The notes under the pieces are model-generated. The model had not been told where the DNA came from and did not search any database. It saw only the letters and a list, made by a program, of their open reading frames with translations. A stretch of 39,445 nucleotides of DNA from an uncultured Planctomycetales bacterium (lineage in GTDB: Bacteria > Planctomycetota > Planctomycetia > Pirellulales > Thermoguttaceae). Below are positions 12,715-25,270 of the stretch, piece after piece (position 1 is the stretch's first letter; every line of letters starts with the position of its first letter). The stretch spans positions 1-39,445 of the forward strand of contig CAMNJU010000006.1 in NCBI GenBank assembly GCA_946541595.1. Direction: 5' to 3'. The position numbers and the translations under genes were made by a program.

Positions 12715-12968
12715 GTGATTTCTACAAAAGGCAGATACGCGCCGCGCGTCCTGATCGATTTGGCGGAGCAGGATTCGGGCGATTTCGTCCCCCTTACGGA
12801 AATAGCGCCGCGTCAGCAGATATCGCTCAAGTATCTCGGATTATTTTGAAGATACTTGTCCAAAAGAAGCTGCTCAAAGGGCGTCGGGGAAGGGGGCCGG
12901 CTATAAACTTACCCGCGCGCCGGAGGAGTACGTCGTAAGCGAGATTCTCGAACTGACTGCGGAATAAA
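12715..12968 (+). pseudogene. Degraded Rrf2-family regulator, remnant A
   Basis: Homologous to the 5' half of the intact Rrf2 gene at 24779; single-base deletions (e.g. tatctcggattatt vs tatcttgagattatt) cause frameshift/stop; lacks the Cys-rich 3' part. Confidence 0.85.
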
Positions 12969-12990
12969 CGGCCGACGCTCAATACGAAAC

Positions 12991-13030
12991 GCGGCGCGAA
13001 GCTCTTTTGAACTTCGCGCCGCGCGTGTTT
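12991..13030 (+). terminator. Intrinsic terminator (possibly bidirectional) between Rrf2 remnant A and ATP-grasp A, copy 1
   Basis: gcggcgcgaag-ctcttttgaa-cttcgcgccgc followed by gcgtgtttttt. Confidence 0.7.
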
Positions 13031-13044
13031 TTTACTTTTGTCCG

Positions 13045-14235
13045 CTACTCCCTCTCATGGACGAAGCGAATGAATTCGTCGACCTCTTCTTTTGTATCGA
13101 CCCGAACGGTGTACATCTGCCTTCCCATCGTTTCATGCATCATTTCCGGCATTTCCTCGCACATTTTCATAACGGCGCCGTATCGGTCTAAAATCTCTTC
13201 GTGAGTGTGCGCGTAACGTTTGCCGTCTTTTCTGCTTGCGTAAGCGCAATAGTAGTTTTGGCGCGGCCTGTCGTCCTTCCAGACGCCGTTGACGACCATT
13301 TCCGCCCAAATCTGATAGACGTCGACGCTGTGCGCGAAATTCATCATGTCGGGGGTGTAGCCTCCCGCCGGACGCATATTGACTTCCAGCGCGACAAAGT
13401 CGCCGACGTCGGCAAGGTTCTTTTTGGGCTGCGTAAGCCTGAAAAATTCAAGGTGAATAAACCGATTGAACGCATTGAACGCTTTCGCCGTCCGCCTCCC
13501 TAATTCGTACAGCTTGGGAAGGTCGTCTCTGTTTACGTAATACGCCAAATCCAAACCTTTATTGACGATATCCGCGATCGAGGGCGGCCAAACGGTCGAC
13601 GACTCGAAGAGAGGCGTCGCGTTTGCGTCGGTAATGGCGTCGTACGAATAGACGTCGCCCGTAATAAACTCTTCACAGACGTACGGTTCGTCCGGCTTCT
13701 CTTTGAAAAACCGCCGAACGTCGTCCAGCGATTCCAGTTTGTACGTATGCGCCGCGCCCACGCCTTTTTCCGGCTTGGCGATTGCGGGAAAACCGACGGC
13801 CTCGAGAAACGCCGCCGTTTGCTCCCAGTTCTCCACTTTGGCGCATCGCGCCGTCGGAACGTTCGCCTGGGCGTATTTGATCTTCATTTCCGCCTTGCTT
13901 TTAAAGAAGCGGACTTCGTCCGGCTGGACGCCCGTCTTTATGTTAAAGTCTTGACGGAGCCGCGCGTCCTGCTCGAGCCAGTATTCGTTGTTCGACTCGA
14001 TCCAGTGAATTCTGCCGTACTTCGACGCGAAGAAGGCGACGGCGCGCCGCATCTCTTCGTAGGATTCCATATTCGGCAGATAGTAGTATTCGTCGAGCGA
14101 ACGCGTAACTTCCGGGGCGAGCGAGTCGTAAGGCGCGTCTCCGATTCCCAATACGCGAACGCCCATTTTCTTTAAACGGTCGCAAAAGTTCCAATAGGTT
14201 CTAGGGAAATGTGGGGAAACGACAATGAAATTCAT
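13045..14235 (-). CDS. ATP-grasp carboxylate-amine ligase A (copy 1)
   Basis: Pre-ATP-grasp NFIVVSPHFPRTYWNFCDRLKKMGVRVLGIGDAPYD; GFPAIAKPEKGVGAAHTYKL; CEEFITGDVYSYDAITD; ALEVNMRPAGGYTPDMMNFA. Confidence 0.88.
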   Translation of the reverse strand: MNFIVVSPHFPRTYWNFCDRLKKMGVRVLGIGDAPYDSLAPEVTRSLDEYYYLPNMESYEEMRRAVAFFASKYGRIHWIESNNEYWLEQDARLRQDFNIKTGVQPDEVRFFKSKAEMKIKYAQANVPTARCAKVENWEQTAAFLEAVGFPAIAKPEKGVGAAHTYKLESLDDVRRFFKEKPDEPYVCEEFITGDVYSYDAITDANATPLFESSTVWPPSIADIVNKGLDLAYYVNRDDLPKLYELGRRTAKAFNAFNRFIHLEFFRLTQPKKNLADVGDFVALEVNMRPAGGYTPDMMNFAHSVDVYQIWAEMVVNGVWKDDRPRQNYYCAYASRKDGKRYAHTHEEILDRYGAVMKMCEEMPEMMHETMGRQMYTVRVDTKEEVDEFIRFVHERE

Positions 14236-14251
14236 AATACCGTTCTCTCAG

Positions 14252-15028
14252 TTAGAGTTCCGCGAAGTCCATGTACAGGTACTTTGTTTTCGCCGCGTCG
14301 TCGACGTACTGAGCGCCGTGATTCGTGCCCGCGGCGACGAATTCGCCCTCCTGATACGCGGTAAGCGTTGTAAATTCGACCGGATTCCACTTTTCTTCGT
14401 CGAGCGGCACGGTCGAAAAGAACGCCGAATCGCCGTCCTGCCGAACGAACAGACTGTTTTTGTAGTTCGTGTGGACGTAAAAGAGTTCGCCGTCGTGGAT
14501 AATCAGATTCAGCTTGTTGTTCGGCGCCAGTTCGCAAACGATCGAGTTTACGGTTTCGAAGCGTTCTTCACGTCTGAGTATTCTGCGCTGGCCGTCCTGC
14601 TGGGCGTTAATTTTATCTACCAGGTAGAACAGAATTCTCTCGCTGTCCGTGAATCCCTCCTGAACGCGGACGTACTTGTCTAAAACAGGCGCTTCGAAGA
14701 TCGTTCCGTTATGAATGAGCGTCCATGCGCGTCCGGAATTGTCGCGCCGCACGAAAGGATGGCAGTTTTCATAGTCCATATTGCCTCGCGTTGCCAGCCG
14801 CAAATGGGCCATCATTCCGCGCGTTACGATCGGCCGGCGGATTCTTTCGCGTAAATATCTGCTTTTAAACGCCGGCTGAGGTTCCTTTTCCAAATTGACC
14901 GAATCGCCCCCGTCAAAGAGCGCAAGCCCCCATCCGTTGGGCATGTCGATACTGTGCGACATAAATCTTTTCAAAATGTCGTTGACTCGAATCGGCGTTT
15001 TACTTGAGATTGCCAGCAGTTCGCACAT
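14252..15028 (-). CDS. Class II glutamine amidotransferase (Ntn-type, YafJ/EgtC-like) (copy 1)
   Basis: Met-Cys N-terminus (MCELLAISSKTPIRVNDILKRFMSHS), NGWGLALFDGG, MMAHLRLATRGN...CHPFVRR, WTLIHNGTIF. Confidence 0.88.
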   Translation of the reverse strand: MCELLAISSKTPIRVNDILKRFMSHSIDMPNGWGLALFDGGDSVNLEKEPQPAFKSRYLRERIRRPIVTRGMMAHLRLATRGNMDYENCHPFVRRDNSGRAWTLIHNGTIFEAPVLDKYVRVQEGFTDSERILFYLVDKINAQQDGQRRILRREERFETVNSIVCELAPNNKLNLIIHDGELFYVHTNYKNSLFVRQDGDSAFFSTVPLDEEKWNPVEFTTLTAYQEGEFVAAGTNHGAQYVDDAAKTKYLYMDFAEL

Positions 15029-16304
15029 TTAACAGTTCCTCCTGTCGTTCTTTTGCTAACCGAATTCCTTTTCCCACATAATTATCCGCGTATTCGTTCC
15101 GTATAATCCATGCGTAACGGCAGTCCGGGTCGACAAATTTCTCAGCTTCAAAATCGAGAATATCCCTGATTTCAGGCGGAAAATCTCTGTAGAAGTTTTT
15201 CATGGCGATAATCATTTTCAGGGCCGCGTCCTCGACCGATTCAAATATCTTGTTCGGGGCGCCGACGTTGACCATGCGAAGGTCGTATCGCGCCGCGTTT
15301 TTGAAGTTCTGAACCGCCTGAACTTGATCGCGAACGGTCAGTTTGGGACGCGACATACTCAGCAGCCATACCATGAGCAGCTGCGCGAAGATTAAGTCTT
15401 TCTTATTGACTCCGGAAGGTTCAAGCGGGTTTAAGTCGAACATTCTCAGCTCAATATGATTGACGCCCTCTTCGCGCAGCGTCTGCAGGAGGTTCTGTCC
15501 TCTCGGTTTGAGACGGATCGGATAGTACAGTTCCGTCGGGGCCGCGAGGAGCTGTTCGTCGACGTAGCGCTGAATGCTGTCGGCGTACGTGTCGACGCTG
15601 TCGTAGTTAAAAACGGGCGTAAAGTAGTTCCAGTATCCCAGTTCTCCGCAGCGCAGGCTCGCAAATCCGCTAAAGGTTGTGCGCCCCATAACGCCCTCTT
15701 CAACGTAACTCGAATCGAAGAGCGGACTTGCCGCGGTTATCGCCGTAAGTATCCATCCGTAAGCGGCGAGCTGTTCCGCGAGCGTCAGGTAGAGTCTGTT
15801 TTTGTACTCTTGGAAATCTGTTTCGTTTCCCGCTTCAAAATCGGCGCGCAGAAGCTCGTCTGAGAACGAGTAGTTCACGTGAATTCCGCACAGCGCCATT
15901 TTGTACTTTCCGTACCGTCTGGACAGATATTCGCGATAACTCGTTTTGGGGGAAAGAACGCCGGTAAAGGACGCCGTCGGCACGTCGTCTTCGTCTTCGA
16001 TAAAGGGCGGATTCGAGAATTGCCAAAGGAGTTCCGGTTCAGGGAGCCGCGCAACCGTTTCGTTGACTTTGCGCGTATACCGGAGCAGCGCGTCGACCGC
16101 GCCGTCTGCGGAATCGTAGACCGACGTGTTGATTTCAGTCTGGTTCTCGCAAAAATCGCGGACGATATGCGTTTCGCTCAGCGGAAACGGATGCGGCGTA
16201 TGAGAGAACGACCCGTTGCGAAGGACGCGCAGCGACTCTTTTTCCAAGCCGAAGTTTCCTTGCAGCAGCAGACGTTTAACTCTTTTATCGTCGATATGAA
16301 GCAT
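15000..16304 (-). CDS. Glutamate-cysteine ligase (GshA-type) (copy 1)
   Basis: LLQGNFGLEKESLRV, ENQTEINT, GIHVNYSFSDELL, SLRCGELGYWNYF, HIELRMFDLNPLEPSGV motifs of the GshA/GshF N-domain family. Confidence 0.85.
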   Translation of the reverse strand: MLHIDDKRVKRLLLQGNFGLEKESLRVLRNGSFSHTPHPFPLSETHIVRDFCENQTEINTSVYDSADGAVDALLRYTRKVNETVARLPEPELLWQFSNPPFIEDEDDVPTASFTGVLSPKTSYREYLSRRYGKYKMALCGIHVNYSFSDELLRADFEAGNETDFQEYKNRLYLTLAEQLAAYGWILTAITAASPLFDSSYVEEGVMGRTTFSGFASLRCGELGYWNYFTPVFNYDSVDTYADSIQRYVDEQLLAAPTELYYPIRLKPRGQNLLQTLREEGVNHIELRMFDLNPLEPSGVNKKDLIFAQLLMVWLLSMSRPKLTVRDQVQAVQNFKNAARYDLRMVNVGAPNKIFESVEDAALKMIIAMKNFYRDFPPEIRDILDFEAEKFVDPDCRYAWIIRNEYADNYVGKGIRLAKERQEELLNVRTAGNLK

Positions 16305-16319
16305 AAGTCTTGATCCCTG

Positions 16320-17066
16320 TTATTGAAGGCCGAGCAGCCAAGGGAGGAAATACCGGATTTGTTTGCGCCACCATGGCCAGTCATGATTGACGTCGTATCC
16401 CCAAAAATCGACCCATGCATGGATTCCTTTTTTCTGAAAGACGTCGCGCAGGATAGCGGCCGTTCTTCTCCCTTCGTCTTCCCACGCGCCCTGACCGACG
16501 CAAATAGCGATTTTGCGCTGGTTATACAGCTTGACGTATGGGTGGTCCTCCGGCATGTTTGCCAGAAAATGAACGGGCGAATTATCGTAAAGAACGCCGT
16601 TGAGCCAGTTTCCCCAAAAATAGGCTGCGTCGTAGCATCCGGAACATCCCAAGACGCCGCCGAACAAATCTGGCCGCCGCAGAAAGACGATCGCCGCGTG
16701 CGTCGCTCCCAAGCTGAAGCCCGTCGTTATGGGTATCCCTTGCTCGCCGTTGATTCCTTTAATGAACGGGAGCGCCTCGTCGACTATATAGCGGTAATAA
16801 TTTTCCTGAACGTTCGCTCGGCGCTCTTTATCCCCCGTCTTGTCGGACCAGCTTTCGGCGTCGACCGTATCTACGCTGAATAATTGAATTACGCCCTGTT
16901 CGATGTAATCGGAAAGGGTCTCCTGCATATGAAAGCTTTCCCAATTGTCGCACATGCCGTCCTGGCATGGGAACGCGATCAGGGGCGTTCCGGCATGTCC
17001 GTGCGTGAGAATATTCATGTTTCTTGCGAGCCGTTCGCTGTAGTGGGTGTGAAGTTCTCTTTTCAT
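16320..17066 (-). CDS. Alpha/beta-hydrolase esterase (copy 1)
   Basis: GFSLGATHA nucleophile elbow, LGCSGCYDAAYFW, C-terminal DVNHDWPWWRKQI; start at internal ATG giving an ATGA overlap with the upstream ATP-grasp gene. Confidence 0.82.
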   Translation of the reverse strand: MKRELHTHYSERLARNMNILTHGHAGTPLIAFPCQDGMCDNWESFHMQETLSDYIEQGVIQLFSVDTVDAESWSDKTGDKERRANVQENYYRYIVDEALPFIKGINGEQGIPITTGFSLGATHAAIVFLRRPDLFGGVLGCSGCYDAAYFWGNWLNGVLYDNSPVHFLANMPEDHPYVKLYNQRKIAICVGQGAWEDEGRRTAAILRDVFQKKGIHAWVDFWGYDVNHDWPWWRKQIRYFLPWLLGLQ

Positions 17067-18259
17067 ACCGACGCCTTTCGTTGCAAAATATCGCGAACCT
17101 GTTCGTTTCTTTCCTCGAGCGAATCCGCCCTGAGCAGCCACGCGTGGTTTCCCATTTCGTTCGCAAGGGCCGGAGCGACGTCGAATTCTTCAACGACGTT
17201 TGCCCCCCACCGCGCTCGAATTTCTTCCTCGCTTTTCGCGTAGCCGATCGAATCTTTTCTTCCGACGTGCGTTATATAGCGTTTGAATTCGCCGCTCATG
17301 AAACGTTTATCGTAGATAAGGCTGTCCGCCCAAATCGTGTAAACGTCTGTGTCGTACGCGTAATTCATCTTGTCGGGTATGCGTCCGCCCGGCGCGCGCA
17401 TATTGACTTCGAGGCCGAGGAGCGTTCCTTTTTTGCCGAGTCCCTCTTTGTCCCGATCCAGCCGGAAGAATTCGAAGTGGAAAAAGATATTTCTCGTGTC
17501 GAACTGCTTTAATATCTGTTTTCCCGCTTCTTCGAGATCGGGCGTCGGAGCCTGGCAGTAGCTTACGACGTCCTCGCCGTTATTGACTGCGTCCATGAGA
17601 CTGACCGGAACAATCTGGCTCGCCGCGAATAGGACGTTGCGGTCCGAGTCGGTAATTCCGTCAAAGGTTTCGACGTGGCCCGGAACGTATTCTTCCTCAA
17701 TGAACTGCACGTTGGGGTCGCGCTTTTCCCAGACGATTTCCAATTCGACGCTGTTGTCGGCCCTGCCTGTATTCGAAGCGCCGACTCCCTTGTCGGGCTT
17801 TAAGACGACCGGATACCCGACGTCTCTCGCGAAAATTAACGCGTCCTCAAGCGACTGGGGCAGAGTCCACCGCGCCGTCGGTATGCCCGCGTCCTGATAG
17901 GCCTTTTTCATGAGCGATTTATGGGTCATGCGTTCCGTTTCGGCCGTCTTCGGACCCGTCGTTATATTGAAATCTTCGCGGATATGCGCGTCTAAGTCAA
18001 GCCAATATTCGTTTTCACTTTCGATATAGTCGATTTTGCCGTAATGGAAAATGTAATCGGCGACCGCGCGGTAAACGGCGTCGTAATCGTGAAGATCGCC
18101 GATAAACCTGTATTCTGTCAGCGAGTTCCGGCATGGAGCGCCAATCGCGTCCCAAGGCGCGTCGCCGATCCCCAATACGTTTACTCCGCGTTCTTTAAGC
18201 CGCGCGCAAAAATTGAAGAAGTGACTGGGAAAATGAGGCGAAATAAAAATTACGTTCAT
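17063..18259 (-). CDS. ATP-grasp carboxylate-amine ligase B (copy 1)
   Basis: NVIFISPHFPSHFFNFCARLKERGVNVLGIGDAPWD; GYPVVLKPDKGVGASNT; IEEEYVPGHVETFDGITD; LGLEVNMRAPGGRIPDKMNYA; paralog of ligase A. Confidence 0.88.
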   Translation of the reverse strand: MNVIFISPHFPSHFFNFCARLKERGVNVLGIGDAPWDAIGAPCRNSLTEYRFIGDLHDYDAVYRAVADYIFHYGKIDYIESENEYWLDLDAHIREDFNITTGPKTAETERMTHKSLMKKAYQDAGIPTARWTLPQSLEDALIFARDVGYPVVLKPDKGVGASNTGRADNSVELEIVWEKRDPNVQFIEEEYVPGHVETFDGITDSDRNVLFAASQIVPVSLMDAVNNGEDVVSYCQAPTPDLEEAGKQILKQFDTRNIFFHFEFFRLDRDKEGLGKKGTLLGLEVNMRAPGGRIPDKMNYAYDTDVYTIWADSLIYDKRFMSGEFKRYITHVGRKDSIGYAKSEEEIRARWGANVVEEFDVAPALANEMGNHAWLLRADSLEERNEQVRDILQRKASV

Positions 18260-18358
18260 GTGCCTCTCCTTTCCTTAAGTTTGAACGGCAGGACCGTCTG
18301 GGGCGCGGAAAGCGTCTTTCGGTTGAACCGTTCGATATTTGGGGCGTTCAAAACGCGC

Positions 18359-18390
18359 AAAAAAAAATCGGAATCTCTCGATCCCGATTT
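18359..18390 (-). terminator. Leader (attenuator) terminator upstream of operon copy 1
   Basis: Minus strand AAATCGGGATC-GAGA-GATTCCGATTT followed by T-run, located between promoter and first gene. Confidence 0.75.
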
Positions 18391-18442
18391 CAAGCGCGCC
18401 GTACTGGGCCGCCGCCGTCAAAATGAACGAACAAAGCGGCGC

Positions 18443-18544
18443 TTATGTCTCGACGGATAAGTCGGGATACTCCCTCCGTCGAGAACAACAGCGCATGTCC
18501 ATAAGCGAGCGGCTCTCTTGTTGAAGTGTAATCGACGCCATCAT
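18443..18544 (-). CDS. Putative Cys-Cys leader peptide, operon copy 1 (33 aa)
   Basis: Minus strand GGAGGcccaATGATG...: MMASITLQQESRSLMDMRCCSRRREYPDLSVET*. Confidence 0.55.
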   Translation of the reverse strand: MMASITLQQESRSLMDMRCCSRRREYPDLSVET

Positions 18545-18572
18545 TGGGCCTCCACGATTGTGATTGGCGCAC

Positions 18573-18600
18573 AATATATCCTATAAACCTACTATGTCAA
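18573..18600 (-). promoter_or_regulatory. Sigma70-like promoter of operon copy 1
   Basis: Minus strand TTGACA-16 nt-TATATT; spacer contains TAGGTTTATA, also present in the Rrf2 promoter. Confidence 0.6.
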
Positions 18601-18746
18601 TAGGAATAAAAAAGAAAATTTAAAAAATTTTTAAATTCAAACCGCGCCTTTTCATACGCAAGTCGCCGCGCATATATTTCCTGAGAAATAAAAAAATGCT
18701 TTTCTACGGGAAAAATAGGTTTATAATAAAGGCACAGGAGGCTTCT

Positions 18747-19000
18747 ATGATTTCTACAAAAGGCAGATACGCGCTGCGCGTTATGATCGATTTGGCGGAG
18801 CAGGATTCGGGCGATTTCGTCCCCCTTACGGAAATAGCGCCGCGTCAGCAGATATCGCTCAAGTATCTCGGATTATTTTGAAGATACTTGTCCAAAAGAA
18901 GCTGCTCAAAGGGCGTCGGGGAAGGGGGCCGGCTATAAACTTACCCGCGCGCCGGAGGAGTACGTCGTAAGCGAGATTCTCGAACTGACTGCGGAATAAA
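18747..19000 (+). pseudogene. Chimeric degraded Rrf2-family regulator, remnant B
   Basis: Up to 18783 matches the intact gene; from 18821 onward matches remnant A including the frameshift; encodes only ...ISLKYLGLF*. Confidence 0.88.
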
Positions 19001-19022
19001 CGGCCGACGCTCAATACGAAAC

Positions 19023-19062
19023 GCGGCGCGAAGCTCTTTTGAACTTCGCGCCGCGCGTGTTT
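19023..19062 (+). terminator. Intrinsic terminator between Rrf2 remnant B and ATP-grasp A, copy 2
   Basis: Same hairpin as 12991-13030 at +6032. Confidence 0.7.
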
Positions 19063-19076
19063 TTTACTTTTGTCCG

Positions 19077-20267
19077 CTACTCCCTCTCATGGACGAAGCG
19101 AATGAATTCGTCGACCTCTTCTTTTGTATCGACCCGAACGGTGTACATCTGCCTTCCCATCGTTTCATGCATCATTTCCGGCATTTCCTCGCACATTTTC
19201 ATAACGGCGCCGTATCGGTCTAAAATCTCTTCGTGAGTGTGCGCGTAACGTTTGCCGTCTTTTCTGCTTGCGTAAGCGCAATAGTAGTTTTGGCGCGGCC
19301 TGTCGTCCTTCCAGACGCCGTTGACGACCATTTCCGCCCAAATCTGATAGACGTCGACGCTGTGCGCGAAATTCATCATGTCGGGGGTGTAGCCTCCCGC
19401 CGGACGCATATTGACTTCCAGCGCGACAAAGTCGCCGACGTCGGCAAGGTTCTTTTTGGGCTGCGTAAGCCTGAAAAATTCAAGGTGAATAAACCGATTG
19501 AACGCATTGAACGCTTTCGCCGTCCGCCTCCCTAATTCGTACAGCTTGGGAAGGTCGTCTCTGTTTACGTAATACGCCAAATCCAAACCTTTATTGACGA
19601 TATCCGCGATCGAGGGCGGCCAAACGGTCGACGACTCGAAGAGAGGCGTCGCGTTTGCGTCGGTAATGGCGTCGTACGAATAGACGTCGCCCGTAATAAA
19701 CTCTTCACAGACGTACGGTTCGTCCGGCTTCTCTTTGAAAAACCGCCGAACGTCGTCCAGCGATTCCAGTTTGTACGTATGCGCCGCGCCCACGCCTTTT
19801 TCCGGCTTGGCGATTGCGGGAAAACCGACGGCCTCGAGAAACGCCGCCGTTTGCTCCCAGTTCTCCACTTTGGCGCATCGCGCCGTCGGAACGTTCGCCT
19901 GGGCGTATTTGATCTTCATTTCCGCCTTGCTTTTAAAGAAGCGGACTTCGTCCGGCTGGACGCCCGTCTTTATGTTAAAGTCTTGACGGAGCCGCGCGTC
20001 CTGCTCGAGCCAGTATTCGTTGTTCGACTCGATCCAGTGAATTCTGCCGTACTTCGACGCGAAGAAGGCGACGGCGCGCCGCATCTCTTCGTAGGATTCC
20101 ATATTCGGCAGATAGTAGTATTCGTCGAGCGAACGCGTAACTTCCGGGGCGAGCGAGTCGTAAGGCGCGTCTCCGATTCCCAATACGCGAACGCCCATTT
20201 TCTTTAAACGGTCGCAAAAGTTCCAATAGGTTCTAGGGAAATGTGGGGAAACGACAATGAAATTCAT
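19077..20267 (-). CDS. ATP-grasp carboxylate-amine ligase A (copy 2)
   Basis: Translation identical to 13045..14235. Confidence 0.88.
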   Translation of the reverse strand: MNFIVVSPHFPRTYWNFCDRLKKMGVRVLGIGDAPYDSLAPEVTRSLDEYYYLPNMESYEEMRRAVAFFASKYGRIHWIESNNEYWLEQDARLRQDFNIKTGVQPDEVRFFKSKAEMKIKYAQANVPTARCAKVENWEQTAAFLEAVGFPAIAKPEKGVGAAHTYKLESLDDVRRFFKEKPDEPYVCEEFITGDVYSYDAITDANATPLFESSTVWPPSIADIVNKGLDLAYYVNRDDLPKLYELGRRTAKAFNAFNRFIHLEFFRLTQPKKNLADVGDFVALEVNMRPAGGYTPDMMNFAHSVDVYQIWAEMVVNGVWKDDRPRQNYYCAYASRKDGKRYAHTHEEILDRYGAVMKMCEEMPEMMHETMGRQMYTVRVDTKEEVDEFIRFVHERE

Positions 20268-20283
20268 AATACCGTTCTCTCAG

Positions 20284-21060
20284 TTAGAGTTCCGCGAAGT
20301 CCATGTACAGGTACTTTGTTTTCGCCGCGTCGTCGACGTACTGAGCGCCGTGATTCGTGCCCGCGGCGACGAATTCGCCCTCCTGATACGCGGTAAGCGT
20401 TGTAAATTCGACCGGATTCCACTTTTCTTCGTCGAGCGGCACGGTCGAAAAGAACGCCGAATCGCCGTCCTGCCGAACGAACAGACTGTTTTTGTAGTTC
20501 GTGTGGACGTAAAAGAGTTCGCCGTCGTGGATAATCAGATTCAGCTTGTTGTTCGGCGCCAGTTCGCAAACGATCGAGTTTACGGTTTCGAAGCGTTCTT
20601 CACGTCTGAGTATTCTGCGCTGGCCGTCCTGCTGGGCGTTAATTTTATCTACCAGGTAGAACAGAATTCTCTCGCTGTCCGTGAATCCCTCCTGAACGCG
20701 GACGTACTTGTCTAAAACAGGCGCTTCGAAGATCGTTCCGTTATGAATGAGCGTCCATGCGCGTCCGGAATTGTCGCGCCGCACGAAAGGATGGCAGTTT
20801 TCATAGTCCATATTGCCTCGCGTTGCCAGCCGCAAATGGGCCATCATTCCGCGCGTTACGATCGGCCGGCGGATTCTTTCGCGTAAATATCTGCTTTTAA
20901 ACGCCGGCTGAGGTTCCTTTTCCAAATTGACCGAATCGCCCCCGTCAAAGAGCGCAAGCCCCCATCCGTTGGGCATGTCGATACTGTGCGACATAAATCT
21001 TTTCAAAATGTCGTTGACTCGAATCGGCGTTTTACTTGAGATTGCCAGCAGTTCGCACAT
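20284..21060 (-). CDS. Class II glutamine amidotransferase (copy 2)
   Basis: Translation identical to 14252..15028; overlaps the 3' end of the GshA-like gene by 29 nt. Confidence 0.88.
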   Translation of the reverse strand: MCELLAISSKTPIRVNDILKRFMSHSIDMPNGWGLALFDGGDSVNLEKEPQPAFKSRYLRERIRRPIVTRGMMAHLRLATRGNMDYENCHPFVRRDNSGRAWTLIHNGTIFEAPVLDKYVRVQEGFTDSERILFYLVDKINAQQDGQRRILRREERFETVNSIVCELAPNNKLNLIIHDGELFYVHTNYKNSLFVRQDGDSAFFSTVPLDEEKWNPVEFTTLTAYQEGEFVAAGTNHGAQYVDDAAKTKYLYMDFAEL

Positions 21061-22336
21061 TTAACAGTTCCTCCTGTCGTTCTTTTGCTAACCGAATTCC
21101 TTTTCCCACATAATTATCCGCGTATTCGTTCCGTATAATCCATGCGTAACGGCAGTCCGGGTCGACAAATTTCTCAGCTTCAAAATCGAGAATATCCCTG
21201 ATTTCAGGCGGAAAATCTCTGTAGAAGTTTTTCATGGCGATAATCATTTTCAGGGCCGCGTCCTCGACCGATTCAAATATCTTGTTCGGGGCGCCGACGT
21301 TGACCATGCGAAGGTCGTATCGCGCCGCGTTTTTGAAGTTCTGAACCGCCTGAACTTGATCGCGAACGGTCAGTTTGGGACGCGACATACTCAGCAGCCA
21401 TACCATGAGCAGCTGCGCGAAGATTAAGTCTTTCTTATTGACTCCGGAAGGTTCAAGCGGGTTTAAGTCGAACATTCTCAGCTCAATATGATTGACGCCC
21501 TCTTCGCGCAGCGTCTGCAGGAGGTTCTGTCCTCTCGGTTTGAGACGGATCGGATAGTACAGTTCCGTCGGGGCCGCGAGGAGCTGTTCGTCGACGTAGC
21601 GCTGAATGCTGTCGGCGTACGTGTCGACGCTGTCGTAGTTAAAAACGGGCGTAAAGTAGTTCCAGTATCCCAGTTCTCCGCAGCGCAGGCTCGCAAATCC
21701 GCTAAAGGTTGTGCGCCCCATAACGCCCTCTTCAACGTAACTCGAATCGAAGAGCGGACTTGCCGCGGTTATCGCCGTAAGTATCCATCCGTAAGCGGCG
21801 AGCTGTTCCGCGAGCGTCAGGTAGAGTCTGTTTTTGTACTCTTGGAAATCTGTTTCGTTTCCCGCTTCAAAATCGGCGCGCAGAAGCTCGTCTGAGAACG
21901 AGTAGTTCACGTGAATTCCGCACAGCGCCATTTTGTACTTTCCGTACCGTCTGGACAGATATTCGCGATAACTCGTTTTGGGGGAAAGAACGCCGGTAAA
22001 GGACGCCGTCGGCACGTCGTCTTCGTCTTCGATAAAGGGCGGATTCGAGAATTGCCAAAGGAGTTCCGGTTCAGGGAGCCGCGCAACCGTTTCGTTGACT
22101 TTGCGCGTATACCGGAGCAGCGCGTCGACCGCGCCGTCTGCGGAATCGTAGACCGACGTGTTGATTTCAGTCTGGTTCTCGCAAAAATCGCGGACGATAT
22201 GCGTTTCGCTCAGCGGAAACGGATGCGGCGTATGAGAGAACGACCCGTTGCGAAGGACGCGCAGCGACTCTTTTTCCAAGCCGAAGTTTCCTTGCAGCAG
22301 CAGACGTTTAACTCTTTTATCGTCGATATGAAGCAT
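21032..22336 (-). CDS. Glutamate-cysteine ligase (GshA-type) (copy 2)
   Basis: Translation identical to 15000..16304. Confidence 0.85.
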   Translation of the reverse strand: MLHIDDKRVKRLLLQGNFGLEKESLRVLRNGSFSHTPHPFPLSETHIVRDFCENQTEINTSVYDSADGAVDALLRYTRKVNETVARLPEPELLWQFSNPPFIEDEDDVPTASFTGVLSPKTSYREYLSRRYGKYKMALCGIHVNYSFSDELLRADFEAGNETDFQEYKNRLYLTLAEQLAAYGWILTAITAASPLFDSSYVEEGVMGRTTFSGFASLRCGELGYWNYFTPVFNYDSVDTYADSIQRYVDEQLLAAPTELYYPIRLKPRGQNLLQTLREEGVNHIELRMFDLNPLEPSGVNKKDLIFAQLLMVWLLSMSRPKLTVRDQVQAVQNFKNAARYDLRMVNVGAPNKIFESVEDAALKMIIAMKNFYRDFPPEIRDILDFEAEKFVDPDCRYAWIIRNEYADNYVGKGIRLAKERQEELLNVRTAGNLK

Positions 22337-22351
22337 AAGTCTTGATCCCTG

Positions 22352-23098
22352 TTATTGAAGGCCGAGCAGCCAAGGGAGGAAATACCGGATTTGTTTGCGC
22401 CACCATGGCCAGTCATGATTGACGTCGTATCCCCAAAAATCGACCCATGCATGGATTCCTTTTTTCTGAAAGACGTCGCGCAGGATAGCGGCCGTTCTTC
22501 TCCCTTCGTCTTCCCACGCGCCCTGACCGACGCAAATAGCGATTTTGCGCTGGTTATACAGCTTGACGTATGGGTGGTCCTCCGGCATGTTTGCCAGAAA
22601 ATGAACGGGCGAATTATCGTAAAGAACGCCGTTGAGCCAGTTTCCCCAAAAATAGGCTGCGTCGTAGCATCCGGAACATCCCAAGACGCCGCCGAACAAA
22701 TCTGGCCGCCGCAGAAAGACGATCGCCGCGTGCGTCGCTCCCAAGCTGAAGCCCGTCGTTATGGGTATCCCTTGCTCGCCGTTGATTCCTTTAATGAACG
22801 GGAGCGCCTCGTCGACTATATAGCGGTAATAATTTTCCTGAACGTTCGCTCGGCGCTCTTTATCCCCCGTCTTGTCGGACCAGCTTTCGGCGTCGACCGT
22901 ATCTACGCTGAATAATTGAATTACGCCCTGTTCGATGTAATCGGAAAGGGTCTCCTGCATATGAAAGCTTTCCCAATTGTCGCACATGCCGTCCTGGCAT
23001 GGGAACGCGATCAGGGGCGTTCCGGCATGTCCGTGCGTGAGAATATTCATGTTTCTTGCGAGCCGTTCGCTGTAGTGGGTGTGAAGTTCTCTTTTCAT
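22352..23098 (-). CDS. Alpha/beta-hydrolase esterase (copy 2)
   Basis: Identical to copy 1; start MKRELHTHYSERLARNMNILTHG at 23098 gives an ATGA overlap with ligase B. Confidence 0.82.
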   Translation of the reverse strand: MKRELHTHYSERLARNMNILTHGHAGTPLIAFPCQDGMCDNWESFHMQETLSDYIEQGVIQLFSVDTVDAESWSDKTGDKERRANVQENYYRYIVDEALPFIKGINGEQGIPITTGFSLGATHAAIVFLRRPDLFGGVLGCSGCYDAAYFWGNWLNGVLYDNSPVHFLANMPEDHPYVKLYNQRKIAICVGQGAWEDEGRRTAAILRDVFQKKGIHAWVDFWGYDVNHDWPWWRKQIRYFLPWLLGLQ

Positions 23099-24291
23099 AC
23101 CGACGCCTTTCGTTGCAAAATATCGCGAACCTGTTCGTTTCTTTCCTCGAGCGAATCCGCCCTGAGCAGCCACGCGTGGTTTCCCATTTCGTTCGCAAGG
23201 GCCGGAGCGACGTCGAATTCTTCAACGACGTTTGCCCCCCACCGCGCTCGAATTTCTTCCTCGCTTTTCGCGTAGCCGATCGAATCTTTTCTTCCGACGT
23301 GCGTTATATAGCGTTTGAATTCGCCGCTCATGAAACGTTTATCGTAGATAAGGCTGTCCGCCCAAATCGTGTAAACGTCTGTGTCGTACGCGTAATTCAT
23401 CTTGTCGGGTATGCGTCCGCCCGGCGCGCGCATATTGACTTCGAGGCCGAGGAGCGTTCCTTTTTTGCCGAGTCCCTCTTTGTCCCGATCCAGCCGGAAG
23501 AATTCGAAGTGGAAAAAGATATTTCTCGTGTCGAACTGCTTTAATATCTGTTTTCCCGCTTCTTCGAGATCGGGCGTCGGAGCCTGGCAGTAGCTTACGA
23601 CGTCCTCGCCGTTATTGACTGCGTCCATGAGACTGACCGGAACAATCTGGCTCGCCGCGAATAGGACGTTGCGGTCCGAGTCGGTAATTCCGTCAAAGGT
23701 TTCGACGTGGCCCGGAACGTATTCTTCCTCAATGAACTGCACGTTGGGGTCGCGCTTTTCCCAGACGATTTCCAATTCGACGCTGTTGTCGGCCCTGCCT
23801 GTATTCGAAGCGCCGACTCCCTTGTCGGGCTTTAAGACGACCGGATACCCGACGTCTCTCGCGAAAATTAACGCGTCCTCAAGCGACTGGGGCAGAGTCC
23901 ACCGCGCCGTCGGTATGCCCGCGTCCTGATAGGCCTTTTTCATGAGCGATTTATGGGTCATGCGTTCCGTTTCGGCCGTCTTCGGACCCGTCGTTATATT
24001 GAAATCTTCGCGGATATGCGCGTCTAAGTCAAGCCAATATTCGTTTTCACTTTCGATATAGTCGATTTTGCCGTAATGGAAAATGTAATCGGCGACCGCG
24101 CGGTAAACGGCGTCGTAATCGTGAAGATCGCCGATAAACCTGTATTCTGTCAGCGAGTTCCGGCATGGAGCGCCAATCGCGTCCCAAGGCGCGTCGCCGA
24201 TCCCCAATACGTTTACTCCGCGTTCTTTAAGCCGCGCGCAAAAATTGAAGAAGTGACTGGGAAAATGAGGCGAAATAAAAATTACGTTCAT
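23095..24291 (-). CDS. ATP-grasp carboxylate-amine ligase B (copy 2)
   Basis: Translation identical to 17063..18259; SD AAGGAGAGGCACATG. Confidence 0.88.
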   Translation of the reverse strand: MNVIFISPHFPSHFFNFCARLKERGVNVLGIGDAPWDAIGAPCRNSLTEYRFIGDLHDYDAVYRAVADYIFHYGKIDYIESENEYWLDLDAHIREDFNITTGPKTAETERMTHKSLMKKAYQDAGIPTARWTLPQSLEDALIFARDVGYPVVLKPDKGVGASNTGRADNSVELEIVWEKRDPNVQFIEEEYVPGHVETFDGITDSDRNVLFAASQIVPVSLMDAVNNGEDVVSYCQAPTPDLEEAGKQILKQFDTRNIFFHFEFFRLDRDKEGLGKKGTLLGLEVNMRAPGGRIPDKMNYAYDTDVYTIWADSLIYDKRFMSGEFKRYITHVGRKDSIGYAKSEEEIRARWGANVVEEFDVAPALANEMGNHAWLLRADSLEERNEQVRDILQRKASV

Positions 24292-24390
24292 GTGCCTCTC
24301 CTTTCCTTAAGTTTGAACGGCAGGACCGTCTGGGGCGCGGAAAGCGTCTTTCGGTTGAACCGTTCGATATTTGGGGCGTTCAAAACGCGC

Positions 24391-24422
24391 AAAAAAAAAT
24401 CGGAATCTCTCGATCCCGATTT
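24391..24422 (-). terminator. Leader (attenuator) terminator upstream of operon copy 2
   Basis: Minus strand AAATCGGGATC-GAGA-GATTCCGATTTTTTTTT; GNRA-type tetraloop and U-tract, ~100 nt before the first gene. Confidence 0.78.
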
Positions 24423-24474
24423 CAAGCGCGCCGTACTGGGCCGCCGCCGTCAAAATGAACGAACAAAGCGGCGC

Positions 24475-24576
24475 TTATGTCTCGACGGATAAGTCGGGAT
24501 ACTCCCTCCGTCGAGAACAACAGCGCATGTCCATAAGCGAGCGGCTCTCTTGTTGAAGTGTAATCGACGCCATCAT
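24475..24576 (-). CDS. Putative Cys-Cys leader peptide, operon copy 2 (33 aa)
   Basis: SD GTGGAGGCCCA then ATGATG; peptide MMASITLQQESRSLMDMRCCSRRREYPDLSVET*; tandem TGT TGT directly precedes a 10-bp hairpin. Confidence 0.58.
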   Translation of the reverse strand: MMASITLQQESRSLMDMRCCSRRREYPDLSVET

Positions 24577-24604
24577 TGGGCCTCCACGATTGTGATTGGC
24601 GCAC

Positions 24605-24632
24605 AATATATCCTATAAACCTACTATGTCAA
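24605..24632 (-). promoter_or_regulatory. Sigma70-like promoter of operon copy 2
   Basis: Minus strand TTGACA (24627-24632), 16-nt spacer, TATATT (24605-24610). Confidence 0.62.
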
Positions 24633-24648
24633 TAGGAATAAAAAAGAA

Positions 24649-24669
24649 AATTTAAAAAATTTTTAAATT
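24649..24669. promoter_or_regulatory. 21-bp AT palindrome between divergent operon and Rrf2 promoters
   Basis: AATTTAAAAA-A-TTTTTAAATT, perfect 10-bp arms; also present at 18617-18637. Confidence 0.45.
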
Positions 24670-24778
24670 CAAACCGCGCCTTTTCATACGCAAGTCGCCG
24701 CGCATATATTTCCTGAGAAATAAAAAAATGCTTTTCTACGGGAAAAATAGGTTTATAATAAAGGCACAGGAGGCTTCT

Positions 24779-25270
24779 ATGATTTCTACAAAAGGCAGAT
24801 ACGCGCTGCGCGTTATGATCGATTTGGCGGAGCAGGATTCGGGCGATTTCGTTCCCCTTACGGAAATTGCGTCGCGCCAGCAGATATCGCTCAAGTATCT
24901 TGAGATTATTCTGAAGATACTCGTCAAAAAGAAGCTGCTCAAAGGGCGGCGGGGAAAGGGGGGCGGCTATAAGCTTACCCGCGCGCCGGAAGAGTATAAC
25001 GTATGCGAGATTCTCGAATTGACGGAGGGCTCGCTGGCGGCCGTCGCATGCTTGGAGCCCGACGCTGACGAGTGTCCCCGAAGGAGCGTGTGCCGAACGT
25101 TCAATATGTGGGCTCAGTTCGACAGGCTGGTCCATAAGTTTTTCGAGAATATCTCTCTGGCGGAACTCATGGTCGAACCGGAAGCGCAGCTTGCGAATCT
25201 CGAAGCGCTTTCCTCCGTCGCGCTGTGCTCCGTTCAACCGAAAGAACGCAAATCCAAGAGCTCGAACTGA
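24779..25270 (+). CDS. Intact Rrf2-family transcriptional regulator
   Basis: MISTKGRYALRVMIDLAEQ...ISLKYLEIILKILVKKKLLKGRRGKGGGYKLTRAPEEYNVCEILELTEG...CLEPDADECPRRSVCRTFNMW; three-Cys cluster; AGGAGG SD and TATAAT upstream. Confidence 0.93.
   Translation: MISTKGRYALRVMIDLAEQDSGDFVPLTEIASRQQISLKYLEIILKILVKKKLLKGRRGKGGGYKLTRAPEEYNVCEILELTEGSLAAVACLEPDADECPRRSVCRTFNMWAQFDRLVHKFFENISLAELMVEPEAQLANLEALSSVALCSVQPKERKSKSSN

Follow-up and report, generated by a model that had tools for sequence, protein, structure and literature searches.

In the 39,445-nucleotide stretch of rumen planctomycete DNA analyzed here (the window), an operon of thiol-related enzymes is preceded by a dyad over its -35 element and by a leader containing tandem cysteine codons, a perfect stem and an intrinsic terminator. 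New in this analysis is the dyad, a predicted operator which lies before cysteine/sulfur genes and tracks with an Rrf2-family regulator in the genus. Cysteine-responsive attenuation, added as a lineage-specific, ribosome-mediated and uORFC-8-2-like layer on top of initiation control by Rrf2, is the most likely single reading of the leader, though a tentative one, and Rrf2 control at the promoter only is its main rival. The fuller picture of a two-layer cysteine switch in a planctomycete, in which an Rrf2 regulon was joined by a recently acquired Cys-codon leader peptide that, together with an intrinsic terminator, would add Cys-tRNA sensing, is put forward more guardedly still.

The leader region lies between the divergent Rrf2-family gene and AG1, the first gene of the operon, and the promoter, Shine-Dalgarno sequence, 33-amino-acid upstream open reading frame (uORF), Cys doublet, 10-bp stem and terminator that the sequence-only reading had placed there were each found in the minus-strand sequence at the positions it had given. 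The sigma-70-type promoter TTGACA-N16-TATATT (24605-24632) agrees with the consensus at 11 of 12 positions, with a 16-nt spacer between the -35 (TTGACA, 24632-24627) and the -10 (TATATT, 24610-24605). The Shine-Dalgarno sequence GGAGG (24585-24581) is followed by the uORF MMASITLQQESRSLMDMRCCSRRREYPDLSVET (24475-24576; 33 aa, TAA stop), whose codons 19-20 are the tandem Cys codons TGT TGT (24517-24522). On the base directly after these begins hairpin 1 (24480-24516), a perfect 10-bp stem with the arms TCTCGACGGA (24516-24507) and TCCGTCGAGA (24489-24480); it encloses ATCCCGA (24494-24500), the proposed antiterminator strand, which can form 7 bp with 24413-24419. The intrinsic terminator (24391-24423), with its GAGA loop and T9 tract and counted here as 12 pairs (24423-24396), stands on the same strand ~200 nt 3' of the promoter and ~100 nt 5' of the first gene, and a minus-strand scan from there to the AG1 start (24291) revealed no promoter-like site. 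This arrangement is the one expected of an attenuated leader. Having its own promoter, terminator and ORF, this unit might instead be an independent gene for a small RNA or small protein, with the operon transcribed from elsewhere, but we consider this very improbable: the scan offers no such start between terminator and AG1, the same operator-promoter directly drives the operon in relatives, and the peptide, which matched no protein family, is without homologues beyond the near-identical genome described below.

The operon, encoded on the minus strand, consists of AG1 (ATP-grasp protein, 23095-24291), EST (putative esterase, PF00756, 22352-23173), GSH (glutamate-cysteine ligase family, PF04262, 21032-22336), GAT (EgtC-like class-II glutamine amidotransferase, below the EgtC cut-off, 20284-21060) and AG2 (second ATP-grasp protein, 19077-20267). 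The NCBIfam model nearest to GSH is the bifunctional GshA/GshB model, with a score below its cut-off. The arrangement AG1-EST-GSH-GAT-AG2 (19077-24291; L033-L056; L123-L127) is common to gut and rumen bacteria of several phyla, and none of the papers searched joins its four enzyme terms. The operons of same-genus species have additional upstream genes for a cystathionine gamma-synthase-type PLP enzyme and a PatB C-S lyase (score 425 against a 340-bit cut-off). A potassium efflux transporter of the Kef/YbaL type is encoded divergently to one same-genus operon (L124, 2226-4310), and two other loci (L125 and L126) have genes like it. The E. coli transporters KefB and KefC are gated by glutathione, and by analogy a thiol link of this neighbouring transporter is possible.

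An exact 6,032-bp tandem repeat (12752-18820 versus 18784-24852, no mismatch) takes in the whole operon, and an identical copy of the leader is therefore found on the minus strand at 18359-18600, which adds no independent support because it belongs to the exact duplicate. The duplication junction falls inside the Rrf2 gene. Its copies at 18744 and 12715 carry frameshifts, which leaves the copy at 24779 as the single intact one. The tandem duplication is explained by unequal exchange between Rrf2 copies; in a metagenome-derived genome it could also be an assembly error.

The sole intact regulator (24779-25270, plus strand) is an IscR/CymR-like member of the Rrf2 family that scored above the cut-off for the superfamily (TIGR00738, 121.4 versus 73.3 bits) and below those for CymR (NF047409, 77.6 versus 195 bits) and IscR (110.8 versus 207.6 bits). 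Over the -35 of the operon promoter lies the 17-bp dyad CCTATTGACATAGTAGG (CCTA-N9-TAGG, 24620-24636, minus strand), with a second copy in the window at 18588-18604, and its form CCTATTGAC-N4-TAGG over the -35 is common to the window and the operon promoters of five same-genus species. Exact matches numbered 14 in 20 genus genomes, against none for a reversed control pattern. They precede the same-genus operons, cysK (L128), O-acetylhomoserine sulfhydrylase (L129, L137) and Ni-CO dehydrogenase (L130, L139), these target names being read from the sequences; among them, a family-library score was obtained for the window's own-genome cysK, which is above its family cut-off. In that genome, sites with one mismatch lie before cysK and CO dehydrogenase; such weaker sites are unreliable because the control count rises at one mismatch. 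A homologue of the window's regulator with at least 40% identity was present in all 11 genomes with an exact site and missing in seven of the nine without one (Fisher p = 0.0005, uncorrected for relatedness).

The dyad is probably the operator of the Rrf2-family regulator, and it probably marks a cysteine/sulfur regulon in the genus (the two window sites and L128-L141) that comprises cysK, O-acetylhomoserine sulfhydrylase, Ni-CO dehydrogenase and the thiol operon. A second Rrf2 gene, with 29% identity, adjoins cysK in some genomes, and the cysK sites may be read by its product. In the window's own genome (L143, C89), the stretch between the operator and cysK forms a leader of ~300 nt with a strong hairpin (GAAGACGCGCC...GGCGCGTCTTC) that lacks a U run. 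The earlier guess that cysteine matters at the thiol operon gains backing from the -35 operator it shares with cysteine/sulfur genes. Placement inside this regulon makes Cys sensing by the leader plausible, and since the operon is grouped with cysK its expression would be expected under cysteine shortage, the same direction as Cys-codon attenuation would give. That a glutamate-cysteine ligase would use up cysteine remains a difficulty for an operon that is on at low cysteine.

Chance expectations for the leader were obtained from dinucleotide shuffles of its sequence. A Shine-Dalgarno-led uORF with a Cys doublet arose in 0.08% of the shuffles, any uORF with a Cys doublet in 1.4%, and a Shine-Dalgarno-led uORF of any kind in 14%. 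Perfect stems of at least 10 bp were likewise rare (0.2%), and the fold of the leader (z = -3.36) was equalled in stability by none of 200 shuffles; in the MFE fold the stem of hairpin 1 continues outward and pairs through the Cys-codon region. For ATCCCGA, which the sequence-only reading had proposed as antiterminator, the complementarity to the terminator arm is present, but a 7-bp complement of this kind is ordinary, occurring in 12% of shuffles, and the pairing is thus not significant by itself.

The leader is confined to a very narrow group of genomes. A search with AG1 yielded 24 loci across many phyla, to which same-genus genomes were added, and the leader was present in just one other, near-identical genome (G072, L033), with none found before the first gene in the 23 more distant loci. 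For the Bacteroidales loci, where AG1 mostly comes directly after the esterase gene, this refers to the stretch before AG1 rather than to the operon promoters. A Cys uORF followed by a terminator was found neither at the operon promoters of the five same-genus species, whose operons are 50% identical and have short leaders, nor at the ~70%-identical operons in Oscillospiraceae, Alphaproteobacteria and Lachnospiraceae. Among 120 family genomes, G072 alone had a homologue of the uORF peptide. Weaker matches to the peptide were judged to be chance, as they read through coding regions, and a short ORF with a Cys doublet at a further locus (L040) was rejected by eye, its ATG overlapping the -10. 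Searches for Cys uORFs before cysS (genus) and cysK (own genome) and for codon-matched uORFs before trpE and leuA (own genome) gave no convincing case. The uORF, its Cys codons and the terminator are hence kept only in the near-identical genome; the sequence-only reading had named a lack of conservation of the Cys codons or the uORF in related loci as evidence against itself, and as far as the data reach this is what was observed.

Within the one comparable pair, the 186 nt from uORF to terminator show no substitution relative to G072, against a divergence of ~4-5% at third codon positions in most genes nearby and of 1.5% in the intergenic sequence alongside. The Poisson probability of zero substitutions is 0.0002 at the codon-position-3 rate and 0.06 at the local intergenic rate, and for this single pair of sequences the identity suggests constraint.

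Both the shuffles and the relatives bear on the possibility that the Rrf2 promoter operator is the sole control, in which case the leader would be a folded 5' UTR whose terminator is partly read through and whose Cys doublet is a coincidence. This would agree with an operator that is conserved across six species when uORF and terminator are not, with an antiterminator pairing within chance, and with the frequency at which shuffles contain some Shine-Dalgarno-led uORF. We nevertheless regard it as the less likely of the two, given that most transcripts would be lost at a strong terminator with no promoter behind it if antitermination could not occur, that a Cys doublet in a Shine-Dalgarno-led uORF, rare in shuffles, here belongs to a cysteine regulon and stands beside a 10-bp stem, and that uORF and terminator span a stretch free of substitutions.

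Cysteine-responsive attenuation was further examined by RNA folding with a masked ribosome, applied to the leader with four footprints and also to five E. coli attenuators (trp, thr, phe, leu and his). For trp, thr and phe, a ribosome on the signal codons leaves the terminator arm paired with upstream sequence, and one at the stop leaves it free; leu and his show no clear switch, so the method misses some real cases. For the planctomycete leader with the A site on Cys20/Ser21, the 7-bp helix reached modelled probabilities of 0.0-0.93 depending on footprint and transcript length, arising before the 3' arm of the terminator is made, and it was absent in the model without a ribosome. To this extent the model is compatible with the proposal that a stalled ribosome frees the antiterminator, but three of the four footprints also give the helix when the ribosome is at the stop codon; with the footprint of 18 nt upstream and 15 nt downstream it is mostly absent there. 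Folding of the full-length RNA invariably favours the terminator, as it does for most of the E. coli controls. A Cys-stall switch is possible under the fold model, in a footprint-dependent manner. The Arg codons, which the sequence-only reading had offered as an alternative signal, are disfavoured, the modelled antiterminator probability being 0 with the A site on Arg24.

These results also touch on an attenuator that does not sense Cys-tRNA and responds to uORF translation generally (Arg/Ser codons or overall rate), which would set the choice of hairpin 1 or read-through, or to a ligand or protein bound to the leader. Such a device would be consistent with a modelled antiterminator at several ribosome positions, the stop codon included, with the unusually well folded leader and with the five Arg and five Ser codons of the uORF. 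It appears distinctly improbable in view of the zero probability at Arg24, an Rfam riboswitch/T-box scan of the window and seven relatives that returned no match, and a regulon context that indicates cysteine.

According to the preferred reading, cysteine-responsive attenuation on top of Rrf2 control, the Rrf2-family regulator would bind the dyad over the -35 and control initiation within the cysteine/sulfur regulon. The transcript, whose start we infer near 24597, would carry the uORF, the stem and the intrinsic terminator. With ample Cys-tRNA the uORF would be read through, hairpin 1 would re-form and transcription would end at 24391; with Cys-tRNA scarce, the ribosome would stop at Cys19-20 and hairpin 1 would stay open, so that part of its loop could compete for the 5' arm of the terminator and allow read-through into the operon. 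The antiterminator pairing is the weakest step of this proposed mechanism.

This reading is favoured because the parts stand in the right order and spacing, with a rare Cys-doublet uORF and stem and a stable fold; because the operator is the same as that of cysK, O-acetylhomoserine sulfhydrylase and the related operons with cystathionine-synthase and PatB genes; because the transcription unit contains a strong terminator that is followed by no promoter-like site; and because of the absence of substitutions relative to G072 and a modelled antiterminator helix at Cys20/Ser21 that does not form without a ribosome. It is weakened because the leader occurs in two near-identical genomes only and its antiterminator pairing is commonplace among shuffles, because under most footprints tested a Cys stall and a ribosome at the stop look alike in the model, because the full-length RNA favours the terminator (true of most E. 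coli controls too), and because the genomes checked have no comparable uORF before cysS, cysK, trpE or leuA. The original claim of Cys-responsive attenuation is supported in part, by the parts themselves and by the cysteine/sulfur regulon found here, but not by conservation or by the 7-bp antiterminator, which is within chance. If true, it extends leader-peptide attenuation by cysteine to the Planctomycetota and assigns to cysteine metabolism an uncharacterised operon for a glutamate-cysteine ligase, a class-II amidotransferase, two ATP-grasps and an esterase, an assignment that would include the PatB and cystathionine-synthase homologue in the relatives' operons. Whatever the fate of the attenuator, the predicted operator would define a cysteine/sulfur regulon in uncultured rumen planctomycetes and is testable in vitro.

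Several known systems invite comparison. Like the CymR and IscR regulons, the probable planctomycete regulon would unite a protein of the Rrf2 family with a dyad operator over the promoter and with targets that include cysK and sulfhydrylase genes; unlike them, its regulator falls below both curated cut-offs, and its operator is one derived here. The leader shares with the E. coli trp, thr and phe attenuators a uORF with signal codons, potentially competing structures and a terminator before the operon, but those switch sharply in the model and the planctomycete leader does so only for some footprints. As in ribosome-mediated attenuators, a Shine-Dalgarno-led uORF with tandem codons of the proposed regulating amino acid, Cys, lies between promoter and terminator and an intrinsic terminator lies 5' of the first gene; conservation of signal codons and stems in related operons, a supporting feature rather than a strict requirement, was observed only in the near-identical G072. 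Polycysteine uORF attenuators of mycobacteria, described as leaderless (Canestrari et al. 2020, as cited in PMC13236596), had been predicted earlier, with no conserved terminator hairpins and with Rho suggested (PMC1262725). They are likewise short Cys-codon ORFs 5' of cysteine-related operons, but the planctomycete leader, unlike the leaderless ones, has a Shine-Dalgarno sequence and an intrinsic terminator. The uORFC-8-2 motif upstream of cysS in Rhodobacterales, known from 145 examples and read as ribosome-mediated attenuation, has two tandem Cys codons, usually codons 14-15, contained in stem 1, and an intrinsic terminator with a U run as stem 2 (PMC8632094). Here, too, tandem Cys codons adjoin stem 1, which in the MFE fold extends through them, and stem 2 is a terminator, but in another phylum (near-identical record RUG13182), before a thiol-related operon and not cysS, at codons 19-20, and in one locus type with covariation support absent. 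The Rfam scan gave no uORFC-8-2-type match, although Rfam may not contain that motif, and by its definition uORFC-8-2 does not include the planctomycete leader. By analogy, and with some reserve, we suggest that it works like uORFC-8-2 of Rhodobacterales cysS and, less closely, like the mycobacterial Cys uORFs.
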